Source of the DNA: Gemmatimonas aurantiaca T-27
GTDB lineage: Bacteria > Gemmatimonadota > Gemmatimonadetes > Gemmatimonadales > Gemmatimonadaceae
Assembly (NCBI RefSeq): GCF_000010305.1
Contig: NC_012489.1
Coordinates: 4,223,646-4,287,645, forward strand
Length of the DNA: 64,000 nt
Direction of reading: 5' to 3'
Shown one piece after another: positions 5,334 through 21,498 of this stretch. Made by a program: the position numbers and the translations under genes. The notes below the pieces were generated by a model. It was given only the letters and a program-made list of their open reading frames with translations. It had not been told where the DNA came from and did no database searches. The first letter of the stretch is position 1. Every line of letters starts with the position of its first letter.

Positions 5334-6542
5334 ATGACCATGCGCGCTGACGACACGCATCCGGACCGCTGGCGCATGCTGGCGCTGATTTCGGTGGCGG
5401 AGCTGCTCGGCATGTCGGTGTGGTTCACGGGCAGTGCCGTTGCGCCCCAGCTCACAGAGCGTTGGGCGCTTTCGGCCACGGACGTGGGGTGGCTCTCCAC
5501 GGTGGTGCAGCTCGGGTTCGTACTCGGTACGGCACTGTCGGCGGTGCTCAACCTGGCCGACGTGGTGCCAGCCCGTCGGCTGTTTGCGACTGCCGCGACA
5601 CTGGGCGCGTTCAGCAATGCGTTGCTGTTGCTCGCCCCGAGCTATGGTTGGGCGTTGGTTGCACGCGCACTGTGCGGGTGCTGCATCGCGGGCGTGTACC
5701 CGCCAGCCATGAAAATGGCGTCCACCTGGTTCCGCGAACGGCGTGGGTTGGCGGTGGGCACAGTGGTGGGCGCACTCACGGTGGGCAAAGCCTCACCGTA
5801 TCTCGCGCAGGCCATTCCCGATGTCACGGTGCGGGCAGTGGTGTTCGCGTCGAGTGGCGCAGCATTGGTGGCGGCTCTGCTCATCGGATGGCGCTATGTG
5901 GATGGCCCGTATGCGTTTCCGGCACGCCGCTTTTCATGGGGCCTGGTGGGCACGGTGTTTCGTGAGCGCCGTTGGCGGTTGGCAACCGGCGGCTATCTCG
6001 GACACATGGCCGAGCTGTATTCGTACTGGACGTGGATTCCCGCGTTTCTTGGCGCGAGTGCGGTGGCGCATGCGGCGGCGACCGGCTCGCCGGTGCCGAC
6101 GCGACTGGTGGGTCTTTTGTCGTTCGGCGTGATCGCGGTGGGTGGCATCGGCTGTTTCTGGGGAGGGCTCGTCGCCGATCGCATCGGCCGCGCGCGCCTG
6201 GTGAATCGCGCGATGGCACTGAGCGGTGCATGTGCGCTGCTGATCGGCCTCACTTTTGGTCGCTCGTGGTGGCTGCTCGCGCCACTCGCTCTGGCGTGGG
6301 GATTCTTCGTGATCGCCGACAGCGCGCAGTTCTCGGTGCTGGTCACCGAAAGTGTTCCGCCGCACGCCGTGGGCACTGCGCTCACCGTGCAGGTGTCCAT
6401 TGGTTTTCTACTGACCACCGTCACCATTCAGATCGTGCCGCTGCTGGTGCAGTGGATTGGGTGGCAGTGGGCATTTGCGGCATTGGCGCTCGGGCCGCTG
6501 TTGGGCATAGCGAGTATTCGGCGATTGCAGCGGCTGACTTGA
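5334..6542 (+). CDS. MFS transporter
   Basis: 402-aa polytopic inner-membrane protein with about twelve hydrophobic segments, of the major facilitator superfamily (proton-coupled or facilitated transport). The N-terminal half holds SVWFTGSAVAPQL, an MFS opening often seen in nitrate/nitrite-like and cyanate-type porters, and the glycine-rich GCCIAGVYPPAMKMASTWF signature (region of TM4-5, with FRERRGLAVG loop). The central loop GGLVADRIGR is the MFS motif A copy in the second half. Substrate not assignable. ATG at 5334, with a second ATG two codons on. It is the last gene of the left plus-strand block; the next gene is convergent. Confidence 0.88.
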   Translation: MTMRADDTHPDRWRMLALISVAELLGMSVWFTGSAVAPQLTERWALSATDVGWLSTVVQLGFVLGTALSAVLNLADVVPARRLFATAATLGAFSNALLLLAPSYGWALVARALCGCCIAGVYPPAMKMASTWFRERRGLAVGTVVGALTVGKASPYLAQAIPDVTVRAVVFASSGAALVAALLIGWRYVDGPYAFPARRFSWGLVGTVFRERRWRLATGGYLGHMAELYSYWTWIPAFLGASAVAHAAATGSPVPTRLVGLLSFGVIAVGGIGCFWGGLVADRIGRARLVNRAMALSGACALLIGLTFGRSWWLLAPLALAWGFFVIADSAQFSVLVTESVPPHAVGTALTVQVSIGFLLTTVTIQIVPLLVQWIGWQWAFAALALGPLLGIASIRRLQRLT

Positions 6543-6593
6543 GGTTGATCTACTTTTTGCCGCGGATGACACGGAAATGCGCGGCAAAGCAGT

Positions 6594-6631
6594 AAAAAGC
6601 TGCCGACCGATCACGAGACCGGCCGGCAGCT
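6594..6631 (-). terminator. Rho-independent terminator of the BNR/sortilin gene
   Basis: On the minus strand, 28 nt after the stop of the BNR gene, an AGCTGCCG / CGGCAGCT stem (6598-6605 with 6624-6631) is followed by a T run (complement of the A run 6594-6598). On the plus strand the same hairpin could stop the MFS transcript, but it is followed only by CTTC, so the main direction is minus. Confidence 0.75.
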
Positions 6632-6658
6632 CTTCAACTCACAGCAACATCGAGACGA

Positions 6659-9600
6659 CTACTGCAGGCGATAGTCGCCCGTCTCGTCTTCTTCTGCGCT
6701 GGTCTGACGCGCCCCCGGAGTATCGGCCGCCTTCACTTCAATGGCCGGATGTCCGTGCTTCTTGCGGATCTCGTCGATGGCGGGGATCAGATCCTTGTAC
6801 GCCTTGCGCAGTTCCACGAGATAGCCTTCCAGCTCCTTCGTGAGCAGATCGAAGACCTGCTGTGACTGCCGCGTGGGACGTGCTTCGGTGCTGGCCACCA
6901 CACCCGACAACGCCGCGATCTGGTTGTTCACCTTGATCGGGTAGTTGAGCGGATCCTGACCCGATTGGTTCTTGACCTGATAGATCTCCGCTTCCATCGC
7001 GCTGATCTTCTGATCGAGATCCTTCACCAGCGTCGCGTAACGCGCCGAGTCGCTGCCGACCGCGTTCATCTTCTCGACCGCCTGCTGACGGACGTAGCGC
7101 ACCGTGCGCACGGCGTCATTGGCATCGGTGGTCCGATCGCGGATCTGCATGAGCAGCTTGTACTGCGCCAGGAGATCGGCGCCCGTCGCGTTGCTACGCG
7201 GATCCTTCTTCACCACCAGGCGTGCATCACCCAACGACTGGCCGTCCACGAGCAGACGCACCGTGAAATTGCCGGGCGGAATGAGCGGACCATTGGTGGC
7301 GCCGGCCCACATGATCATGCCCGGGAACGTGGTCGCATCGCCTTCGCGGAGATTCCACGAGAACGTGTTCATGCCGACGTTGTTCGAAGGCGGACGATCC
7401 GCCGCCACCGAGCGACGGCCACCAGCGGCAGGCGTCGGCGCGACAGCGTCGCTGGCAAAGCTGCGAATGGTGCGGCCGGTGGAGTCGCGGAACTCGATGG
7501 TCACGCGCTTCGCCGGCTCCTTGAGCCAGTAGTACACGATCGTGCCGGCCGGCGGGTTCTGACCCACCGGTGAGGCTGCGCTGCCGCCGCCACCAAAACC
7601 ACCGCCCCAGTTGAGACGGTACGCCGCGCTCGGCGTGAACAGGTGCGCCCGCTTGGCCAGCAGCGTGGTGTTCACCTGACGCAGCAGGCTGATGTCGTCC
7701 ATCACGTAGAACGACCGACCGTGCGTACCGGCAATGACATCGCCCTCCTTGATCGCGATATCGTGCACCGGCACCATCGGCATGTTGCGGCGCAGCGAGA
7801 ACCAGGTGCCACCGTCATCGAGCGACGCCCAGAGGCCACGTTCGGTGCCGGCGAACAGCAGCCCCGGACGCACCTCATCTTCGCGAATCACACGCGTGAA
7901 TTCGTGGGCCGGAATGCCGTTCGGCTTGCCGCTGCCGTCGATGCGCGTCCACGTCTTGCCGAAATCCGTCGTCTTGAAGAGATACGGCTCGTTGTCGTCC
8001 ATCTGGAAGCGGTTGGCCGCGACATACGCCGTACCGGCGTTGAAGTGGCTGGCTTCGATGATGGAGACACGCGCCCATTCCCGTTCCTTCAGGATGGCCG
8101 GCGTCACGTTGGTCCACGACACGCCGCCATTGCGGGTGACGTGCACCAGGCCGTCGTCGGTGCCGGCCCAGATCGTGCCCTTGGCGATCGGTGATTCGGC
8201 GATCGCGAACACCGTGCCGTAGTACTCGACGCTGGTCTGGTCCTTCGTGATCGGACCACCCGACGGACCGAGCGTGCGCGGATCGTTGCGTGAAAGGTCG
8301 GGCGAGATGGCGGTGTAGCTGTCGCCTTCGTTCACCGTCTTGAACAGCACGCTCGAGCCGACGTACAACGTCTTCGGATCGTGTGGGCTCACCAGCAGCG
8401 GGAACGTCCACTGCATGCGGTACTTCGCGTCCTTCGCATCATGGCCCATCGGATTGAGCGGCCACGGATTGATGTCACGCGTGAGTCCCGTGCGCATGTC
8501 CTTGCGCGTGAGGTAGCCGCCGTAGCTGCCCGCAAACACGATGTCCGGGTTGTTCGGCAGCGGCGCAATGAAGCCCGACTCACCACCACCAGCGTCCTTC
8601 CACATGTCGATCGTGATGCCACCCGGCGCACGCGACGGACCACACAGCGTGCTGTTGTCCTGCTGCGCGCCGCAGATCTGATACGGGAAGTGGTTGGTCG
8701 TGGTGACGTGATAGAACTGCGCCGTGGCGTAGTCCTCGTCCGTCCAGCTCTTGCCGCCGTCGGTGGACACGTTGGCGCCGCCGTCGTTGGCCTCGATCAT
8801 GCGGTTCGGGTCTTCCGGCGCGACCCAGAAGTCGTGCGAGTCGCTGTGCTTGACGCCCTGCACGTTGCTCCACGTCTTGCCACCATCACGCGAGACCTGG
8901 AACGACACGTTGCTGGCGTACACCACATCCGGATTCTTCGAATCGGCGTAGATCTTCATGTAGTACCACGCCCGCTGACGCAGCTTGCGCTCGTCATTCA
9001 CACGCTGCCACGTGGCGCCCGCATCATCGGAGCGGAACACGCCGCCTTCTTCGGCTTCGATGATGGCATAGAGACGCTTCGAGTCACCACCGCTGACGGT
9101 GACGCCGATATTGCCCCAGAGACCCTTCGGCAGACCGGGGTTCCGGGTGATCTCGGTCCAGGTGTCGCCACCATCGGTGGTCTTGAACATGCCCGAACCC
9201 TTGCCGCCTGAGACCAGCGTCCAGGGCTTGCGATGCGCCTGCCAGAAGCCGGCATACAACACGTTCGGGTTGGCCGGATCCATCACCAGATCGGCCGCGC
9301 CCGTGGAATCATCGCGGAAGAGCACCTTCTGCCAGTTCTTGCCGCCGTCCTTGCTGCGGAAGATGCCGCGCTCGGCGTTCGGGCCCCACACATGCCCCTG
9401 CACCGCCGCGTACACAAGCTCGGGGTTCGTGGGGTGCACGCGCACCTTGGCGATCTGACGCGAATCATTCAGACCGATGTTGACCCACGTCTTGCCACCG
9501 TCGGTGGTCTTCCACATGCCATCGCCATGGGAGACGTTGCCGCGGATCGCAAACTCGCCACCGCCGACATACACGACATCGGGATTGCTCGGCGCCACTG

Positions 9601-11342: not shown

Positions 11343-11351
11343 GTGTGTGAC

Positions 11352-12983
11352 ATGTTGCATCTCATCTTCCGACGCGGTCGACGCGTCGGTCTCGCGACCG
11401 TCGTCCTTGTGCTGTGTGGCGTGATTGCCGGCCTGGTGCTCGCGCGTTCGGCAGGCGCGCAGGCTGCGCCATCGGCCGGCATCATCCCGCCCACCTTGTT
11501 CGTCTACCTGCGCGGGAATGACACGGTCGCCACCGAGACGTTCAGTGCGGACGCGGGTGCGTTGCGCGGGGCATTGGTGCTGCGTGGACAGCCGTCCCTC
11601 ATGTGGACACAACAACGCAGCGGCACCACGCTCACGGCGCTCGATGTGACCGTGCGCGCGGCCGGAGCATTGTCGGATGCTGCGCCGCTGCAGGAAGTGA
11701 CTCTCACGCCGCGCAGCGACAGTGTGGTGATCGTCTCGCGATCGGGCGGCCGCTCACGCACGCAGGCCGTGGCCAGTCGTGATGGTGCCCTGCCATTGGT
11801 AGGGCAGTCGGTCATGCACGCCGCTGTTGTCTCCCGTGCGGCCAGACAGATGAATCGGCGCGTGGTGCCGGTGTTCATGGCCTCCGGCCTGCAAACCCTC
11901 GACGGCACCGTGGTGACCGTGGGTGACACCACCACGCTCTCCATCTCGGGACTCGCCGTGCGCACCGTGTGGAGGGGTGACCTGCCCGTGGAAGTCACGG
12001 TACCGGCGCAGGGACTGCGGGCGGTGCGCGCCACGGGTCCGATCACGCTCGCACCGGCTGACGCGATCAGCTACAACGCGCCGGTGAACGCACCGTATGG
12101 TGCCGAGCAAGTGACCATTCCCACCTCGCGGGGCTATACACTCGCCGGAACACTCACCAAGCCGACGGGCGCTGCGGGCAAGGTGCCTGTGGTCATCACC
12201 ATCAGCGGCAGTGGCCCGCAGGAACGCGATTCCCGGCTGCCCGGCATTCGTGGCTATCAGCCGTTCCGCGAGATCGCCGACACACTCGGCCGCCGCGGCA
12301 TCGCCGTCCTGCGTTATGACGATCGTGGCGTCGGCGCGAGCGGCGGTGCCTCGTCGCGCGGCAGTGCCACCAGTACGGACTTTGCCGACGATGTGCAGTC
12401 GGTGATTGCGTGGCTCAAGACCCGCTCCGATATCGACCCGGCCCGCATTGCACTGGCCGGTCACAGTGAAGGTGGACTCATTGCGCCCATCGTGGCGGTG
12501 CGTGAGCCATCGCTGCGTGCCATCGCGTTGCTGGCCGGACCGGCGTACGATGGCCGCCGCATTCTGGTCTCCCAGAACGAGACGGTCATCAAGGAGCTTT
12601 CCGGCGTCACGGACGCACAGCGGGATTCGCTGCGTCGTCGTGTTCCGGCGTCGCTCGATTCCGTTGAGCGCACCAATCCGTGGTTCGGCCAGTTCATGCG
12701 CACCGATCCGCGTGTGATGCTGCGGCAGGTGAAGCAGCCCGTGCTGGTGCTGCAGGGTGACACCGATCTGCAGGTCACGCGTGAACAGGCAGATTCCATC
12801 GCCACCACGCTGCGGGCCGCCGGCAATCGTCGCGTGACCCTGCGTCATTTCCCGGCTACCAATCACCTCATGCTGGCCGATTCAACGGGCGCGCTCAATG
12901 GCTACGCCCTGCTGCCCAACACGCAGGTGCGCCGAGAAGTTCTCGGCGCCCTCGCGGATTGGATGGTGCAGACACTCAGATAG
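11352..12983 (+). CDS. Secreted alpha/beta hydrolase with N-terminal beta domain
   Basis: 543-aa serine hydrolase, exported. I use ATG 11352 (MLHLIFRR); the open frame begins three codons earlier at GTG. A signal anchor (about residues 10-35, ending SAGAQ) precedes a beta-rich N-terminal domain (about 40-230) and an alpha/beta hydrolase domain (about 245-543). Oxyanion region [10 protein letters not shown], nucleophile in GHSEGG, acid in LQGDTDLQV and His in ATNHLML give a full triad. The layout is that of the prolyl-oligopeptidase/dienelactone-hydrolase-like group of peptidases and esterases. It is possibly cotranscribed with the SPFH-RHH pair (9 nt gap) and overlaps the convergent neighbour by 8 nt. 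Confidence 0.85.
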
Positions 12984-15900
12984 GCGCCCGTACCCCACGC
13001 AACGATCCCTGCCACTCGACGATCCAGCCGCGCGCCCGCCAGCGCGCGAGCAGGGCGTCGTATTCCGGTTTGTAGTTGGGAACACCCAGCATGGGTGAGT
13101 AGACCCAACGATGCGTGGGCGAGTACGCCGTGAGCACACCCGGCGCATCAGGCAGATCGATTGCCTCGAGCCACAGCGAGTCGTTGCCCACGCGCACCCA
13201 TCGTGGTGTGGTGGGCACGACCATGGCTGTTCGTGGAGCGGTCTTGCCAACGGCTTTTGCCGATCCGGCGATGGAGGTCGGATCGGTAGCCAGCAGTGAC
13301 TGCACGACGGCGCGCGTGCCCGGTGCGACATAGAGTGCGCGGTTGCTGCGTGCAAACCATCGCGCGCCCCCGTTGCCCATACCAGGGCGCGCCACGACGC
13401 CGGCTGCGAGACCGACGCCCGTTGCTCGTGTGAGCCAGGCGTCGATCGTGGGCAGCGATCCTTCGGATTGTGCGGTCTCGAAGAGCACCCATCCACCGCC
13501 GATGCGCACGGCGCCGGCACTGCCCACCAACTGCGGAAACACCACAAAATGGTCGGCCGTCACGCGCACCGAATCGAACGGCAACTGCCACATGGGCCGG
13601 CGTTCGGTGGCGAGATAGCGTGCCGCCATCTCGTCACTGATGGCAAACGAATCCGCCGGCGCTGGCGCATTCACGGTGATGGCGAGTGCCGTGATCCGCT
13701 TGTATGGGCGGCCAACACGCCGGATATCACGTTGCCGCGGCAGGAAAACACCCGGTGGTACTCGCGTCCAGTTGGAGAACCAGATCTCCACCGACATGAC
13801 CCCCCACGACGCGAGGCCAAAATCGTTTGTTTCGTCGGCGACGAACCGCACGAGTGCCGGCAGGCCATCGGTACGACGCAGGAACCAGGTGGACGGAAAG
13901 CCATCAACCGTGGCGAACACACGGGCATGTATCACACCGTCGATGGACGTATCGCGTTGCGCGTGCAGATCGCCAGCCTTGCGCGCCAGCAGCAACATCT
14001 GCTCCGGCGCAAAAGCAAACTGCTCTCGGCGCTCGGTGATATACGCGATGTTGAGGGGCATGACGGTGGGTGTACCGCCCGGCCCATTGAACGAGCGGGC
14101 GGCGACCGTATCACGCACGATGTCGACGAATGTGCCACCGGTCAGCGGCATCCGCACATTGCGCCATCCTTTGAGCGCATAGTTGCGCAGATCGCTGTTA
14201 CGCTCGAAGGACGGCTGGTCCGGATACGGATGTTCTGCAAACGTCGTGCGCTGCCACTGCGTGAGCAGATCCATGCGCATGGTCGTGATCGCCCGGAGTG
14301 CGGAATCACCGCCCATGCGCGCGATGGCTCGATCGAGCAGGGCGGATGCCACACGATCTGCCGGAGGTGCCGACGCTGCTGCCGGGGCTCGTGCTGATGC
14401 TGATGCGGGCGTTTCAGCACCAGCGGGTGGAGCCGGCACGCGCAGCATCGGCGTCGTGATGGTATCCGAAGCGACGGTCTCTCCGTTGAGGAACCGGGCC
14501 AGCACCTCCGCTATACGAGGTGATGCGACCCACAGGTCGTCATCATGGCCGGCTCCATCGAGCAGCAACGTGGTGGCGCGCCGGAATCCGCGTCTGACCT
14601 CATCGGCATTACTCGGCGGTGTTCGCCCGTCCATGCTGCCGCTGATGAACAGAGTCGGCGTTGCTGACCGAAGGGGCGCACGGAAGGCGTCTCCCAGATC
14701 GGGCACACCAAAATCTGCGGCCTCGAGTGTGGTCCACGGAAAATTGAGTGCGCTGCCCAACACGCTCCGTCGCTCGCCGTTCTGCACCAGTGATCGACGT
14801 GCCCGACTGGCACCACTCGCCAGATCCATGGCCAGTGGCATGGCCGCAGGGCGCAACACCGCGTCGCGCAATCCACTGACCAACTGCGCCACCAGAGAAG
14901 CATCGCCTTGCTGCACCTGACTGAGCATCACTGGAACGAGCGACGCAGTCTGTGTGCGCCCCAACGCAGCCGCCACGGCGAGTTGCAAATCGAAGGCGCC
15001 GATCACCATCGGTCCGCCCACACCTGGCGGTCCCTGCACCGTGCCCGTGAGCGGGCGCTTGGCCAGTGATTGCACCGCGTCTCGCAGCGACCGCTGCAGA
15101 TCCGGCGTCATGGTGCGGGCCACCGGATCCTTGGCCGACCACGCCGACAGTCGACCCAATATTGCATCCGCATCGCGGGGATCTTTCCAGGTGTGATCCG
15201 GTCCTTCGGTACCCATCAACACCACACGCTGCACGACGGTGGGGTGCAGCCGCAGTGTGGCCAGTGCGAGATGCGTGCCATAGCTCATCCCCCAGAGACT
15301 CACCTGCTCCACGCCCAGCGCACGGCGCAGCGCATCGATGTCATGCGCGCTCTCGACCGTCGTGTATGCGGCCAGATCGACACCCTGGCCCCGCCACCAC
15401 GCCACACAACGCGATGTTTCCTGCTGCACCGTCGCCACGTAGCGTGCTTCGGTGATCAGCGAATCATTGTGCAACGGCGCCGCCGCAGGGCGTGGGCATG
15501 ACGGCGGAGGGTCAGAACGACCGGTTCCGCGTTGATCGAGCAGAATGACATCGGCATGTTGCCGCACGGCATCGAAGACGGGCCAGCGACCACCTCGGGC
15601 CGCTTCGATACCCGACCCGCCGGGGCCACCCGCCAGGTAGATCACCGGTGCGATGCCCGGTGTCGCACGAATGGCACGCAGTCGTACCACACGCAGTGTC
15701 TGCGCGGGGCCGTTGGGCACGGCATGACGACGTGGCACATCGAGCACCCCCAATTCGGCGTCGATGCTCCCGTGCGCGCGTGTGACGAGTGTGTAGGGTT
15801 CGAAGCGGATCTGCGATGAAGCACCGGATTGGGCGCTTGCCGCTCTAAGCGTGGCAAGGGAGGCCAGCACCAAAGACGCGGTGAATCCGACCCGTCGAAC

Positions 15901-15996
15901 GATCCGTGATCGCCGGTACGCGATCCGCTGTGTGGAGCACATTGATGTGAGCATGGATGCACAGTGCGGCCTCCTGACACGCTTCGGTGCACACAA
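12976..15996 (-). CDS. Exported TAP-like alpha/beta hydrolase fused to a degenerate metallo-beta-lactamase-like domain
   Basis: 1006-aa protein. The start is uncertain: a TTG/ATG choice places Met15 (MLTSMCST) as a likely start before the signal peptide ending near ASAQS. Residues about 60-500 are a tripeptidyl/prolyl aminopeptidase-type alpha/beta hydrolase: GGPGGSG oxyanion loop, DQRGTGRSD, nucleophile in GMSYG (about residue 236), acid in SGSMDGRTP (about 453), His in DGAGHDDD (about 483). After a Pro/Ala linker, residues about 540-1006 resemble the Gemmatimonadota-type MBL-fold lipoproteins (MGGDSALRAI opening, then an MBL core). In the core the zinc motif HxHxDH is replaced by ARPGMGN just before GGARWFA, so metal binding should be lost. 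Two usually separate genes seem fused. Confidence 0.75.
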   Translation of the reverse strand: MCAPKRVRRPHCASMLTSMCSTQRIAYRRSRIVRRVGFTASLVLASLATLRAASAQSGASSQIRFEPYTLVTRAHGSIDAELGVLDVPRRHAVPNGPAQTLRVVRLRAIRATPGIAPVIYLAGGPGGSGIEAARGGRWPVFDAVRQHADVILLDQRGTGRSDPPPSCPRPAAAPLHNDSLITEARYVATVQQETSRCVAWWRGQGVDLAAYTTVESAHDIDALRRALGVEQVSLWGMSYGTHLALATLRLHPTVVQRVVLMGTEGPDHTWKDPRDADAILGRLSAWSAKDPVARTMTPDLQRSLRDAVQSLAKRPLTGTVQGPPGVGGPMVIGAFDLQLAVAAALGRTQTASLVPVMLSQVQQGDASLVAQLVSGLRDAVLRPAAMPLAMDLASGASRARRSLVQNGERRSVLGSALNFPWTTLEAADFGVPDLGDAFRAPLRSATPTLFISGSMDGRTPPSNADEVRRGFRRATTLLLDGAGHDDDLWVASPRIAEVLARFLNGETVASDTITTPMLRVPAPPAGAETPASASARAPAAASAPPADRVASALLDRAIARMGGDSALRAITTMRMDLLTQWQRTTFAEHPYPDQPSFERNSDLRNYALKGWRNVRMPLTGGTFVDIVRDTVAARSFNGPGGTPTVMPLNIAYITERREQFAFAPEQMLLLARKAGDLHAQRDTSIDGVIHARVFATVDGFPSTWFLRRTDGLPALVRFVADETNDFGLASWGVMSVEIWFSNWTRVPPGVFLPRQRDIRRVGRPYKRITALAITVNAPAPADSFAISDEMAARYLATERRPMWQLPFDSVRVTADHFVVFPQLVGSAGAVRIGGGWVLFETAQSEGSLPTIDAWLTRATGVGLAAGVVARPGMGNGGARWFARSNRALYVAPGTRAVVQSLLATDPTSIAGSAKAVGKTAPRTAMVVPTTPRWVRVGNDSLWLEAIDLPDAPGVLTAYSPTHRWVYSPMLGVPNYKPEYDALLARWRARGWIVEWQGSLRGVRAPI

Positions 15997-16064
15997 TCGC
16001 CGAACGACACCAACAGCCCGCTGAACGACACCGGCCGATCAGCGGTGCCGTACTACCTTCCATC

Positions 16065-17840
16065 ATGGTTGCCTCGCGCCTGCGTCTGGTCCTCATCCCC
16101 TTCCTGCTGTTCTCGTTGCTCATCGTCGGCTTCATGCTTGGCGACGCACCAGCGGGTGCGCACATCGAAGCAATGGGCATGCGGCTCGACACCGATCCGG
16201 TGGCGCAATGGCGTCCACTCGACGGTCGGCTACTGCGGGGCTGGGCCGGTCCCTACACACTGCGCTATCGCGTGGTGCTCACGGATTCACACACCGCCCG
16301 CCCGCTGGGCATTCTCATGGGACTGCGCGCGGCGAGCGTAGCGACCTGGGATGATGTGGCGCTGGCGCCGAATGGTGTGGTAGGGAACAGTCGGTCGTCG
16401 GAAGTACCAGGACGGATTGACTGGATTGTGCCGGTGCCAACCACGCGCGCTGCACCCGGTCCGCACACGCTCACGATTCGTGCATCAAGTCAGCGAGTGA
16501 TGCCCGGTTTCTCGCGCGCGGATCTGCAGGTGCGTGTGCAGGCGCTCGACGAGCTCTATGGCATGCGCTACCGCGGATGGCTGCTGCCGGCATTGGCGGT
16601 GGGATGCATGCTCGTGGCTGCACTGTATGTCGGTGCGGTGATTGCGCGCACCGGAGCGCGACAGGGTGCCTGGCCACTACTCGGGCTGTGTGTGGTGGGC
16701 ATCGTGCTTCCCGCCCTCGAGGCGTGGCGGCCTCTCGTGGGATATCCCTACGATCTGCATCTGGCTCGATTGCTCGCCATTCGTATCCTCACCGCGATAT
16801 CGGCGCTGCTGCTGCCCGCCTACTTCGCGTTGCGGTTTGGCCGGCATCCACTCTCTCGTCGCCGATCCATCGCCTATGGACTCTATGCGCTGCTCGTGCT
16901 GGGAGTGGCGCTCTTCGCGGCCCCCTTCGATCTGGCGGGATGGATTCTGCATGTGAGTGGACTGGGCATGTCCATACTCATCACCCGGCGCGCCATCAAC
17001 GGTGGCTGGCATAGCACCGCTGGAATGCTCACAGTGCTGCTGGCCACCACTCTCGTGGCTGCGTTGCTCGCACCAGGCATCTACATCGATGGTCTATACG
17101 TCATTGCCTTTGCCGCGATTCTGGTGACCGTACTGCTCGCCCACGCGGGATACTTGCGTGCAAGCGCCGAGCAGAGCGCGGCGCTCGAGGCAGCCCGAGC
17201 ACGTCTGAGCACGGCATTGCTGCGCGGTAGCATTCATCCGCATTGGCTCATGAATACGCTGACGTCGCTCCAGGAGCTCATCGAGCGCTCACCAGCGGAT
17301 GCCAGTCGCATGGTGGAGCTGCTGGCCGAAGAATTTCGCATGGTGCGTGCGGCCAGCGAAGAGGGGTGGATTCCTGTGGACGAAGAGGTCACACTCTGTC
17401 GAACACATCTGGCGATTGTCTCGATTGGTCGGCCTGAGCCACTCACGTTGCGGGTTGAAGGAGCCACGCTGTGGCGAGAGCATGCCCTGCCACCCGGTGT
17501 GTTGCACACGCTGATCGAGAATGGTCTCACACACGGGGCCAACGCCGCGTACCACGGTGATGGTGCCTCATCGGCATCCGCAGTCTCGGATTTTGTGCTG
17601 CAGGCGCACGCGCAGGATGCGACATACCTCACCCTTGTCATGTCCGTGCCTGGCGTCCCCCGTACGGGCAAGTCGATTGTTCCGGGCACGGGCACCCGTT
17701 TCATCGAGGCCAGCTTGCGCACGGCCTTCGACAACGACTGGCAGTTTGCGCAGGCGGCGCACGGTGGCCGATGGGTGAGCACACTGCGGCTCCCGCGGGC
17801 GGCGATGCGACATGGATGGCGGGAGCGTGGGGCATGCTGA
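16065..17840 (+). CDS. LytS-type membrane sensor histidine kinase
   Basis: 591-aa sensor kinase from ATG 16065 (MVASRLRLVLIPF); the 26 upstream codons overlap the divergent gene. A first membrane helix (about 5-25) is followed by an extracytoplasmic beta-domain of about 150 residues and then some seven hydrophobic helices (about 170-350), recalling 7TMR-DISM sensors. The kinase part has the His_kinase box IHPHWLMNTLTSLQ with probable phospho-acceptor H393, and an ATPase with TLIENGLTHG as N-box and a short GTGTRFIEASL G-box. The response regulator ATG (17834) overlaps its stop (17838-17840), so the pair is translationally coupled. Signal unknown. Confidence 0.88.
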   Translation: MVASRLRLVLIPFLLFSLLIVGFMLGDAPAGAHIEAMGMRLDTDPVAQWRPLDGRLLRGWAGPYTLRYRVVLTDSHTARPLGILMGLRAASVATWDDVALAPNGVVGNSRSSEVPGRIDWIVPVPTTRAAPGPHTLTIRASSQRVMPGFSRADLQVRVQALDELYGMRYRGWLLPALAVGCMLVAALYVGAVIARTGARQGAWPLLGLCVVGIVLPALEAWRPLVGYPYDLHLARLLAIRILTAISALLLPAYFALRFGRHPLSRRRSIAYGLYALLVLGVALFAAPFDLAGWILHVSGLGMSILITRRAINGGWHSTAGMLTVLLATTLVAALLAPGIYIDGLYVIAFAAILVTVLLAHAGYLRASAEQSAALEAARARLSTALLRGSIHPHWLMNTLTSLQELIERSPADASRMVELLAEEFRMVRAASEEGWIPVDEEVTLCRTHLAIVSIGRPEPLTLRVEGATLWREHALPPGVLHTLIENGLTHGANAAYHGDGASSASAVSDFVLQAHAQDATYLTLVMSVPGVPRTGKSIVPGTGTRFIEASLRTAFDNDWQFAQAAHGGRWVSTLRLPRAAMRHGWRERGAC

Positions 17841-18532
17841 GGGTGCTGATTGTCGAAGATGAGCCGTTGGTACAGCAGCGCATCGCGCGACTGTGTCGCG
17901 AGCTGCTTGGCCCATCGGCACAGATCGACTGCGCCGCGTCGCTGGACGATGCCGACGACGCGCTGCGTCAACGCGCCATCGATGTCTTGCTGCTCGATCT
18001 CAACCTGCAAGGCGACGATGGCTTCACGCTGCTGCATCGGGCGATCGCGTCCACGTTCCACACGATCGTCATCTCGGCGCATGCGGATCGAGCACTCGAC
18101 GCCTTCGCGCTCGGCGTACTCGACTTCCTCGCCAAGCCGTTTGCAACAGCGCGACTGGCACAGGCGCTGGAACGCGCGCAGGTCGCGTCCCGCACCTCCG
18201 GGCGCGCAACCCAGCAGCTCGGCGTGTGGCGCGCACGGGGTGTGGCGCTGGTGCCGGTGGAGGAAATCGCGTGGATCCAGGCGGATGGTGACTACAGCGC
18301 GTTGCAGCTCGTGAACGGTCGTCGTGAACTGCACGACAAGAGTCTGGATCGTCTGCAGCAATTGCTGCCCGCGGCCTTCGTGCGTATCCACCGTTCCTAT
18401 CTCGTGAACATGCAGCAGGCCGACGCCCTGCATGTCGAAGGGGGTGGTCGTTATCGCCTCCGCATGCAGGGAGGCACCGAACTACCCGTGGGGCGGTCGC
18501 GGGCGCAATCGGTGCGGGAGCGATTGCTGTAG
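17834..18532 (+). CDS. LytTR-family response regulator
   Basis: 232-aa DNA-binding response regulator. ATG 17834 is chosen because it begins MLRVLIVEDEP, the classic receiver strand, and overlaps the kinase stop. Acidic pocket E8/D9, phospho-acceptor D55 in LLLDLNLQG, conserved Lys K101 in AKPF. The C-terminal LytTR domain (about 130-232) shows VEEIAWIQADGDYSALQL, LPAAFVRIHRSYLVN and GTELPVGRSRAQ, the hallmarks of this beta-sheet DNA-binding fold. LytTR targets are usually paired 9-bp direct repeats, which I could not find confidently nearby. Target genes are unknown. Confidence 0.94.
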   Translation: MLRVLIVEDEPLVQQRIARLCRELLGPSAQIDCAASLDDADDALRQRAIDVLLLDLNLQGDDGFTLLHRAIASTFHTIVISAHADRALDAFALGVLDFLAKPFATARLAQALERAQVASRTSGRATQQLGVWRARGVALVPVEEIAWIQADGDYSALQLVNGRRELHDKSLDRLQQLLPAAFVRIHRSYLVNMQQADALHVEGGGRYRLRMQGGTELPVGRSRAQSVRERLL

Positions 18533-18933: not shown

Positions 18934-21498
18934 ATGCGCTATAGCCCATCTCCACTTGCCTCGGTCGGTCTGGCGACCGCAGGCCTCTTGCTCGGTGCCT
19001 GCGCGCCGAAACCCACGCCGGCACCTGCGCCCGCTCCGGCGGCGAGCCGTCCTGCGGGAGCAACAACCCCTGCCCCGGGTGGCGCGCCCAGCGCACAGCC
19101 TGCTGGTGGTGCAGCCGGCGGCGGACAGGATCCGCAGCCTCGCGCCTACAACGCCGTCATCACATCGCGCGCGGTGACCAAGAGCGGCGTGTTCAAGGTG
19201 CACCAGGTGGGCTCGCGTCTGTACTTCGAGATTCCCCGCGCCGAGCTGGGCAAGGACTATGTAGTGGTCACCACGCTGGCCGGTACGCCCGATGAAATCG
19301 GCCTTCGCGGCACCCAGGGTGGCAACAACGTGGTGCGCTTCGAACGCCGCGATCATCGCATCTATGTGCGCGAAGCCTCGTTCCGGGACATGATTGCCGA
19401 TACGGCCGCTTCGCAGCGGCTGGCAGCGGAACTGATCGGCGTGACCAAAATCCTCGCCGCGCTCAACGTCGAAGCCTATGGCCCCGACAGTGCCGCGGTG
19501 GTGGAGGTGACGCGCATGTTCACGGGCGGCGTACCCGAATACTCGGCGCTCGGACGTCGTGCACAGGTGGATGCCGCCCGATCATACATCGAACGGTTCG
19601 CCGCCTACTCGCGCAATGTGAACGTGACGGCCGTGCAGTCCTTCACGCCGCAGGGTGCGGCGCCGGCAGGTGGCGGTGGCCCGCCGGGCGCGGCCAACCC
19701 CAATGCGCCCAGTACGGAGAAGTACACCTTCTCCATCGCCAAGCTGCCGGAACAACCGATGATGCCGCGCATGCACGACGAACGCGTGGGCTACGGCACC
19801 GTGGTGCAGCGGGATTTCTCCGGGGCCACCCAGCGCGTGGAAACGCGGCGCTACATCTCGCGGTGGCGCCTCGAGTGCAGTGATCGCAAGGTGGGCAACC
19901 TGTGTGTGCCCAAGAAGCCCATCACGTATTACCTCGACCCGGCCACACCGGCCTGGATCAAGCCGTGGATCCGCAAGGGCATCGAAGCCTGGGTGCCGGC
20001 GTTCGAGGCGGCCGGTTTTCATCAGGGTATCGTCGCGGCCGAAGCACCCGCCAACGATCCCGATTTCTCGGGTGAAGATGCCACGGTGAGCATGGTGCGC
20101 TGGTTGCCGTCGGCCACCGAAAATGCCGTGGGTCCATCGCTCAAGGATCCGCGCACCGGTGAAATTCTCGACGCCGATGTGCAGACGTATCTCAACGTCA
20201 TGAACCTGACGCGGGCCTGGTACTTCACGCAGGTCGCACCGCTCGATCCGCGCGCGCAGAAGCTGCCGTTCCCTGACACACTGGCCGGGCGTTTGCTCGA
20301 GTACGTGACCGCGCACGAAGTGGGACACACACTGGGCTTCCCGCACAACTTCAAGGCCAGCTCGATGTATCCGCTGGACTCGGTGCGCTCGAAGACGTGG
20401 GTGGCCAAGATGGGCCACACGCCCACGCTGATGGACTATTCGCGCTACAACTATGTCGCGCAACCCGAAGATGGTATCGCGCTGGACGACCTGATCCCCA
20501 AGGTCGGTCCGTATGACATCTATGCCGTGAAGTGGGGCTACAGCCCCATCGCCGGAGCCCGCACGCCAGACGACGAGCGTCGTCAGCTCGACCAGTGGGC
20601 ACGCATGCAGGACACCATTCCGTGGTATCGCTTCAGCGGTGATGCCGGCGGTGTGGACCCCGCAGAACAGTCGGAAGCCGTTGGTGATGCCGACGCCGTG
20701 CGCGCCACCGCACTGGGCATCAAGAATCTCAAGCGCGTGATGGGGTTCCTGGAGAGCGCCACGGCGTGGAAGGAAGGCGACACGTACGACAATCTCGAGG
20801 AACTGTACGGCCGCACCGTGAATCAGTGGGCCACCGAGCTCGGTCACGTGGCGCGCATCGTCGGTTCCGAATACCGACACGAGAAGGTGGTGGGTCAGGT
20901 CGGTCCGATCTGGCGCAACGTGGAGCCGGCACGCCAGAAGGAAGCCGTGCAATTCCTGCTCGACAACGCCTACGTCACGCCCACCTGGTTGCTCGACGAA
21001 AATATCCTGCGCAAAGTGGAGCCGAGCGGCTCCCTGAATCGTGTGGGCGCCGCGCAGGCCCGCTCACTCACCGCCATGCTGGCCAACGACCGGCTCGTGC
21101 GCATGGTCGAACTGGAAGCCCGGGCGAGCACACGGCGGGATGTGTATCCGGTGGCCGAGCTGCTCACCGATCTGCGCCGTGGGCTGTGGAAGGAGACGGC
21201 AACGGGCGCGCCGATCGACGCGTTCCGTCGCCGTTTGCAGCGCGTGTATCTCGAGCAGATGGCGGCGAAGATCAATCCGCCGACACCGGCCGCTGGTGGT
21301 CAGGGCGGCCAGGGTGGTGGGTTCGGCGGACAGGCACCGGTGAGCCCGGCCGACATCCGTCCCATCATCAAGAGCGAAATGCGAGCGCTCGACGCGCAGC
21401 TCGCGGCGGCGATTGGCCGGACCAGTGACCGCATGAGCAAGGCGCACCTCGAAGATGCGCGCGACCAGATCAAGACGATGCTGGATCCCAAGAACTGA
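18934..21498 (+). CDS. Zinc-dependent metzincin-like lipoprotein protease (DUF5117/DUF4953 type), copy 1
   Basis: 854-aa lipoprotein: signal peptide with lipobox LGAC, then a Pro/Ala-rich tether (to about residue 65). An N-terminal beta domain follows, then CSDRKVGNLCVPKKPITYYLDP and the catalytic domain with HEVGHTLGFPH (His461, His465, His471), which fits HExxHxxGxxH, and a Met-turn in LMDYSRY. This is the architecture of the DUF5118-DUF5117-DUF4953 zinc protease family. It presumably acts in the periplasm or at the outer membrane; substrate unknown. A Gly-rich insert (GGQGGQGGGFGG) lies near the C terminus. It ends at a strong bidirectional terminator and has a close paralogue 1 kb downstream. 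Confidence 0.9.
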   Translation: MRYSPSPLASVGLATAGLLLGACAPKPTPAPAPAPAASRPAGATTPAPGGAPSAQPAGGAAGGGQDPQPRAYNAVITSRAVTKSGVFKVHQVGSRLYFEIPRAELGKDYVVVTTLAGTPDEIGLRGTQGGNNVVRFERRDHRIYVREASFRDMIADTAASQRLAAELIGVTKILAALNVEAYGPDSAAVVEVTRMFTGGVPEYSALGRRAQVDAARSYIERFAAYSRNVNVTAVQSFTPQGAAPAGGGGPPGAANPNAPSTEKYTFSIAKLPEQPMMPRMHDERVGYGTVVQRDFSGATQRVETRRYISRWRLECSDRKVGNLCVPKKPITYYLDPATPAWIKPWIRKGIEAWVPAFEAAGFHQGIVAAEAPANDPDFSGEDATVSMVRWLPSATENAVGPSLKDPRTGEILDADVQTYLNVMNLTRAWYFTQVAPLDPRAQKLPFPDTLAGRLLEYVTAHEVGHTLGFPHNFKASSMYPLDSVRSKTWVAKMGHTPTLMDYSRYNYVAQPEDGIALDDLIPKVGPYDIYAVKWGYSPIAGARTPDDERRQLDQWARMQDTIPWYRFSGDAGGVDPAEQSEAVGDADAVRATALGIKNLKRVMGFLESATAWKEGDTYDNLEELYGRTVNQWATELGHVARIVGSEYRHEKVVGQVGPIWRNVEPARQKEAVQFLLDNAYVTPTWLLDENILRKVEPSGSLNRVGAAQARSLTAMLANDRLVRMVELEARASTRRDVYPVAELLTDLRRGLWKETATGAPIDAFRRRLQRVYLEQMAAKINPPTPAAGGQGGQGGGFGGQAPVSPADIRPIIKSEMRALDAQLAAAIGRTSDRMSKAHLEDARDQIKTMLDPKN

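Follow-up and report, generated by a model that had tools for sequence, protein, structure and literature searches.

A single gene of Gemmatimonas aurantiaca T-27 joins an S33/TAP-type alpha/beta hydrolase to a second half that ends in a metallo-beta-lactamase (MBL) fold without zinc ligands, and the zinc site was lost before the two halves were joined. We favor, with modest confidence, the reading that an already zinc-less secreted protein was fused onto the hydrolase and serves there as a non-catalytic module for binding or positioning. The gene lies in a window of 64,000 nucleotides, the whole stretch of DNA that was analyzed; the genome is a single contig of 4,636,964 bases.

A hydrolase and a zinc-less MBL fold in one reading frame

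The features of the gene and of its divergent neighbors, in window coordinates, are as follows.

12976..15996 (-), fusion ORF, 1006 aa: single uninterrupted frame of 1006 codons without a stop
15829..15954 (-), putative signal peptide of the Sec type, residues 15-56, with ASAQ as its last residues (from reading the sequence)
14422..15816 (-), S33/TAP-type alpha/beta hydrolase, residues ~61-525 (Pfam, PDB, triad)
14338..14421 (-), Ala/Pro-rich linker, residues ~526-553; end point of the stand-alone hydrolases
13585..14337 (-), domain without a named family, residues ~554-804; located before the MBL domain in every relative
12979..13584 (-), remnant of an MBL fold that lacks zinc ligands, residues ~805-1006 (profiles and alignment)
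13366..13392 (-), ARPGMGNGG in place of THHHWDHAGG, residues 869-877 (alignment)
15987..17840 (+), LytS-like histidine kinase, divergent (Pfam His_kinase 5.7e-12)
17771..18532 (+), LytTR response regulator paired with the kinase (Pfam LytTR 4.7e-19, Response_reg 7.3e-17)

According to the first-pass annotation, one polypeptide combines a hydrolase with an MBL-fold domain that has no zinc motif; the single frame and the profiles described below bear this out. The ORF starts with a TTG that overlaps the divergent kinase gene; judged from the sequence, the true start is likelier to be the ATG at residue 15 (nt 15954), which is located 3' of an AGGAGG. From this ATG the protein begins MLTSMCSTQ...LVLASLATLRAASAQ, which by eye reads as a Sec signal, and this putative signal would imply export of the fusion protein. 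No promoter or terminator patterns were found around the gene. Its 3' end overlaps by 8 bases a convergent alpha/beta hydrolase gene (window 11343-12983, + strand; S33/S9-like, Hydrolase_4 8.4e-17), and no such gene was seen next to stand-alone orthologues of the hydrolase half.

The hydrolase half exceeded the curated cut-offs of both Pfam Abhydrolase_1 (9e-24, 84.9 bits; cut-off 25.8) and the TAP-like, C-terminal Abhydrolase_4 (4.7e-5, 23.9 bits; cut-off 21). Its matches in the PDB were Hip1, carboxylesterase A and related hydrolases, at E about 7e-14. The triad S238 (GMSYG), D456 (SMDGRTPP) and H484 (AGHDDD) was kept in 34 of 34 aligned homologues, in agreement with the intact Ser-Asp-His triad seen earlier in the first half, and Cys167 and Cys197 were present in 25 and 27 of the 34, respectively. 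Because of the triad and the putative signal, we infer that the hydrolase half would be an extracytoplasmic peptidase or esterase with S238-D456-H484 as its catalytic residues.

Two domains in the second half and a lost zinc site

Searched alone against Pfam and NCBIfam, residues 540-1006 gave no family match, and no Pfam match was found in the fused half or in any of the 19 zinc-less members of its family. Homology to MBL proteins was detected with three profiles, one of the zinc-less family (A1), one of relatives that include intact motifs (A2), and one of zinc-less sequences only (A3). Comparison of A1 with A2 by hhalign gave an E of 6.6e-44 over 431 columns, and three of the eight A2 relatives matched Pfam Lactamase_B (L044 at 1.4e-9). 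Against the PDB, the profiles made from zinc-less sequences reached almost only metallo-beta-lactamases, the best being 6bm9 (E 0.0025 with A1, 0.0086 with A3), so the MBL assignment is independent of the A2 relatives; taken one by one, the matches to MBL structures have weak E values (0.002-0.01). The A3 profile aligned GNGG onto the HxHxDxxGG stretch of solved metallo-beta-lactamases. Two single-sequence structure models had pLDDT values of 33 and 37, too low to lend the fold any support.

In the fused protein, ARPGMGNGGARWFA begins at residue 869 (nt 13392 downwards) and is aligned with the THHHWDHAGG of intact relatives. The remaining zinc ligands are also replaced by alignment, the third His by D950, the Asp by M969 and the last His by R1000, so that neither HxHxDH nor any other ligand position is left. 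Earlier, ARPGMGN had been read at nt 13367-13402 where MBL proteins have HxHxDH; the alignment to intact relatives and the PDB profile agree with this, and the start at nt 13392 falls inside that range. Given the profile matches and the lost ligand positions, this is by homology a true MBL domain, for which classical zinc binding is impossible. The extent given for this domain, residues 540-1006, was too wide: it holds for residues ~805-1006, and residues ~554-804 form a different domain.

A Pfam search with residues 554-804 returned nothing; a LolA-like fold is conceivable from its strand pattern. Within the zinc-less family, mean pairwise column identity was 0.50 for residues 554-804 versus 0.31 for residues 805-1006, and most of the constraint on the family thus falls away from the lost zinc site. 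The MBL part being the least conserved region, residues 805-1006 may be a mere scaffold. Alignment of the zinc-less family revealed no invariant His or Cys across the whole second half, and because this half has no zinc site either, a non-catalytic role in binding or positioning would be the most economical one. It could also be argued that the appended half is catalytic in some other way, through domain 554-804 or a rebuilt NGG site and without the classical zinc ligands. The GG of NGG is nearly invariant within the zinc-less family, and residues 554-804 hold most of its invariant residues, several of which are Asp, Glu, Arg or Trp. However, similarity to any Pfam enzyme family is lacking, as are the invariant His and Cys, and we regard such a catalytic role as improbable.

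Loss of the zinc site before the fusion

Relatives of the second half were found in 29 of 298 Gemmatimonadota genomes searched; nearly all of them are stand-alone proteins, about 490 aa long and each with a signal peptide. None turned up in a scan of viral contigs. G. aurantiaca itself has a stand-alone zinc-less paralogue that is 55% identical to the fused second half, and distant members of equal layout keep an intact motif (NTHHHWDHAGG in L044 and L046). The first-pass annotation had pointed to separate Gemmatimonadota genes with an MGG..ALR lead-in, and to homology of the second half with stand-alone MBL proteins of this phylum. Such genes exist, some with an intact zinc motif (L044-L046, L093), and the homology was supported by end-to-end alignment and by the profile comparison. 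Another set of relatives (L039-L043, L101, L102, L112, L117 and L119) has a partly eroded MBL motif (TSDPWAHLGG, TDLAWPHVAG) with one His and the motif-4 Asp retained; this group represents either an intermediate state or a separate loss.

In a tree of 57 proteins, with an arbitrary root, the 28 zinc-less rows formed one group (100/100, in 100% of bootstrap trees) and the rows with an intact motif formed another (100/97). The partly eroded rows were placed between the two, without a single origin being resolved, and because the root is arbitrary, one loss and stepwise loss are not separable in this tree. The fused copy was located inside the zinc-less group, on a branch of 0.44, clustering with stand-alone genes of the same genus (96/97). 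Of the 29 columns in which the other 18 zinc-less members do not vary, it kept 28, as the stand-alone members do, and by both its place in the clade and its retained residues it belongs to the zinc-less (NGG) family. Since the fused copy is nested in a group that is zinc-less throughout, the zinc site was lost long before the fusion. The idea that the motif disappeared in connection with the fusion is therefore not supported: the loss is ancestral to the stand-alone family, the paralogue in the same genome included.

A comparison of six loci with stand-alone zinc-less genes found no neighbor common to more than two of them and hence points to no partner. No comparable family of zinc-less MBL proteins from bacteria came up in literature searches, and the Gemmatimonadota-wide, stand-alone, secreted zinc-less family is to that extent undescribed.

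Locus, joint and distribution of the fusion

Stand-alone orthologues of the hydrolase are 57-61% identical to the hydrolase half. Homologues of LytS and LytTR divergently adjoin the orthologues in L077, L078 and L080, and more weakly those in L087 and L088, which indicates that the fused gene is at the ancestral place of the hydrolase. Just past the LytS/LytTR pair, the window contains a gene for a large Met-zincin protein (DUF4953/DUF5117/DUF5118; 18934-21498, + strand).

The stand-alone orthologues end in ...TKMLRVPRQPTR or ...TKLLRIPTRPQGS (MLRVPRQPTR / LLRIPTRPQGS), and the fused protein reads ...TPMLRVPAPPAG (MLRVPAPPAG) at the joint, followed by AETPASASARAPAAASAPPA into the second half. 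The joint is exactly at the normal end of the hydrolase. At the position of the linker, the stand-alone second-half proteins carry their signal peptide; no lost signal peptide was found in the three frames over the joint, and codon-position GC was even across it, so that a hidden frameshift is unlikely. These results bear on an assembly or sequencing error that joined two genes, a concern raised with the original observation and one to which the occurrence of the fusion in one genome only, known from a single assembly, lends some weight. However, one uninterrupted frame crosses the joint without a shift in codon-position GC, and no alternative frame at the joint gives a signal peptide or a start for a second gene. 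In addition, the linker is of a kind common between domains, and the appended copy is only 55% like the paralogue and thus not a misplaced duplicate. We consider a joining error very improbable.

Full-length queries against 288 genomes of the order, including 179 of the family, found no second fusion, and all other matches covered one half only; with many draft MAGs among these genomes, the absence falls short of complete proof. A search for the same fusion in other genomes had been suggested with the original observation, and in the genomes searched it proved not to be recurrent, being found in the G. aurantiaca genome only. One candidate in G079, with a match extending to query residue 567, was rejected because it consists of a hydrolase and an amidohydrolase. 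There, a TAP-type hydrolase runs without a stop into Amidohydro_1 (2.8e-25; L120:2789-5557, in G079:C4 at about 210.8-213.6 kb); here a hydrolase of the same type, from another genus of the family, has a different domain fused to its C terminus. In an unclassified MAG (L011), a frame of 1445 codons has an apparent multi-pass membrane segment preceding a TAP-type hydrolase, the hydrolase match being at 6001-7581 and the frame open far upstream.

The restricted distribution raises the question of whether the fusion is incidental, that is, whether a duplicated gene happened to come in frame, so that the halves act independently and the appended half adds nothing to the hydrolase. Occurrence in a single genome would agree with this, as would the stand-alone paralogue that remains in that genome and the orthologous hydrolases that manage without the module. 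Nevertheless, 28 of 29 family-invariant columns were kept despite considerable divergence, and no stop has arisen in the 460 codons that follow a long linker. Some constraint thus acts on the second half, and it need not concern the hydrolase. An incidental fusion thus appears unlikely, yet it is the most serious of the alternatives.

Discussion

The favored reading, recruitment of a zinc-less protein as a non-catalytic module, can be put as a sequence of events. The ancestor would have been an exported S33/TAP hydrolase encoded divergently from a LytS/LytTR pair. A second copy of a secreted protein, in which the C-terminal MBL-fold domain had by then lost all zinc ligands, would have been added to the 3' end of this hydrolase by way of an Ala/Pro-rich linker. 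The appended half, incapable of classical zinc hydrolysis, would hold the hydrolase at the ligand or partner that its stand-alone relatives bind, and the conserved domain 554-804 is likely to be more important for this than the MBL remnant. It is possible, and we put it forward tentatively, that an ancient secreted, non-catalytic MBL family of Gemmatimonadota, with a conserved partner domain, has in G. aurantiaca been built into an S33 peptidase for targeting or regulation.

The fusion itself is a species-level curiosity with limited general weight, and the broader point is the stand-alone zinc-less family, for whose role the fusion partner, a peptidase, provides a clue. Intact (THHHWDHAGG), partly eroded (TSDPWAHLGG) and lost (GNGG) zinc sites occur in one layout within one phylum, and this series is a good case of an enzyme fold turned to non-catalytic use.

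The hydrolase half resembles S33 peptidases of the TAP/Hip1 type in its triad, its TAP-like C-terminal part and its two mostly conserved cysteines, but the aligned homologues stop at the hydrolase and the fused protein is 480 residues longer. Among metallo-beta-lactamase fold proteins (Pfam PF00753), the nearest to the second half are L044-L046 and L093 of Gemmatimonadota, which likewise have an MGG lead-in domain followed by the MBL domain and can be aligned with it end to end, whereas HxHxDH, the third His, the bridging Asp and the last His are all replaced in the fused protein. The eukaryotic zinc-less MBL proteins INTS9 and CPSF100 are partners of active subunits (PMC7980224). INTS9, in which NYHC replaces HxHxDH, has been called a pseudoenzyme, and the inactive MBL subunit of RNA-processing complexes was proposed to mediate interactions (PMC7980224). 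The fused second half shares with INTS9 and CPSF100 an MBL fold, in its case assigned by homology, that outlasted the zinc ligands. INTS9 and CPSF100 belong to the MBL/beta-CASP proteins and each pairs with an active MBL subunit, whereas the G. aurantiaca protein is bacterial, shows no insertion of the beta-CASP type and has a serine hydrolase attached.
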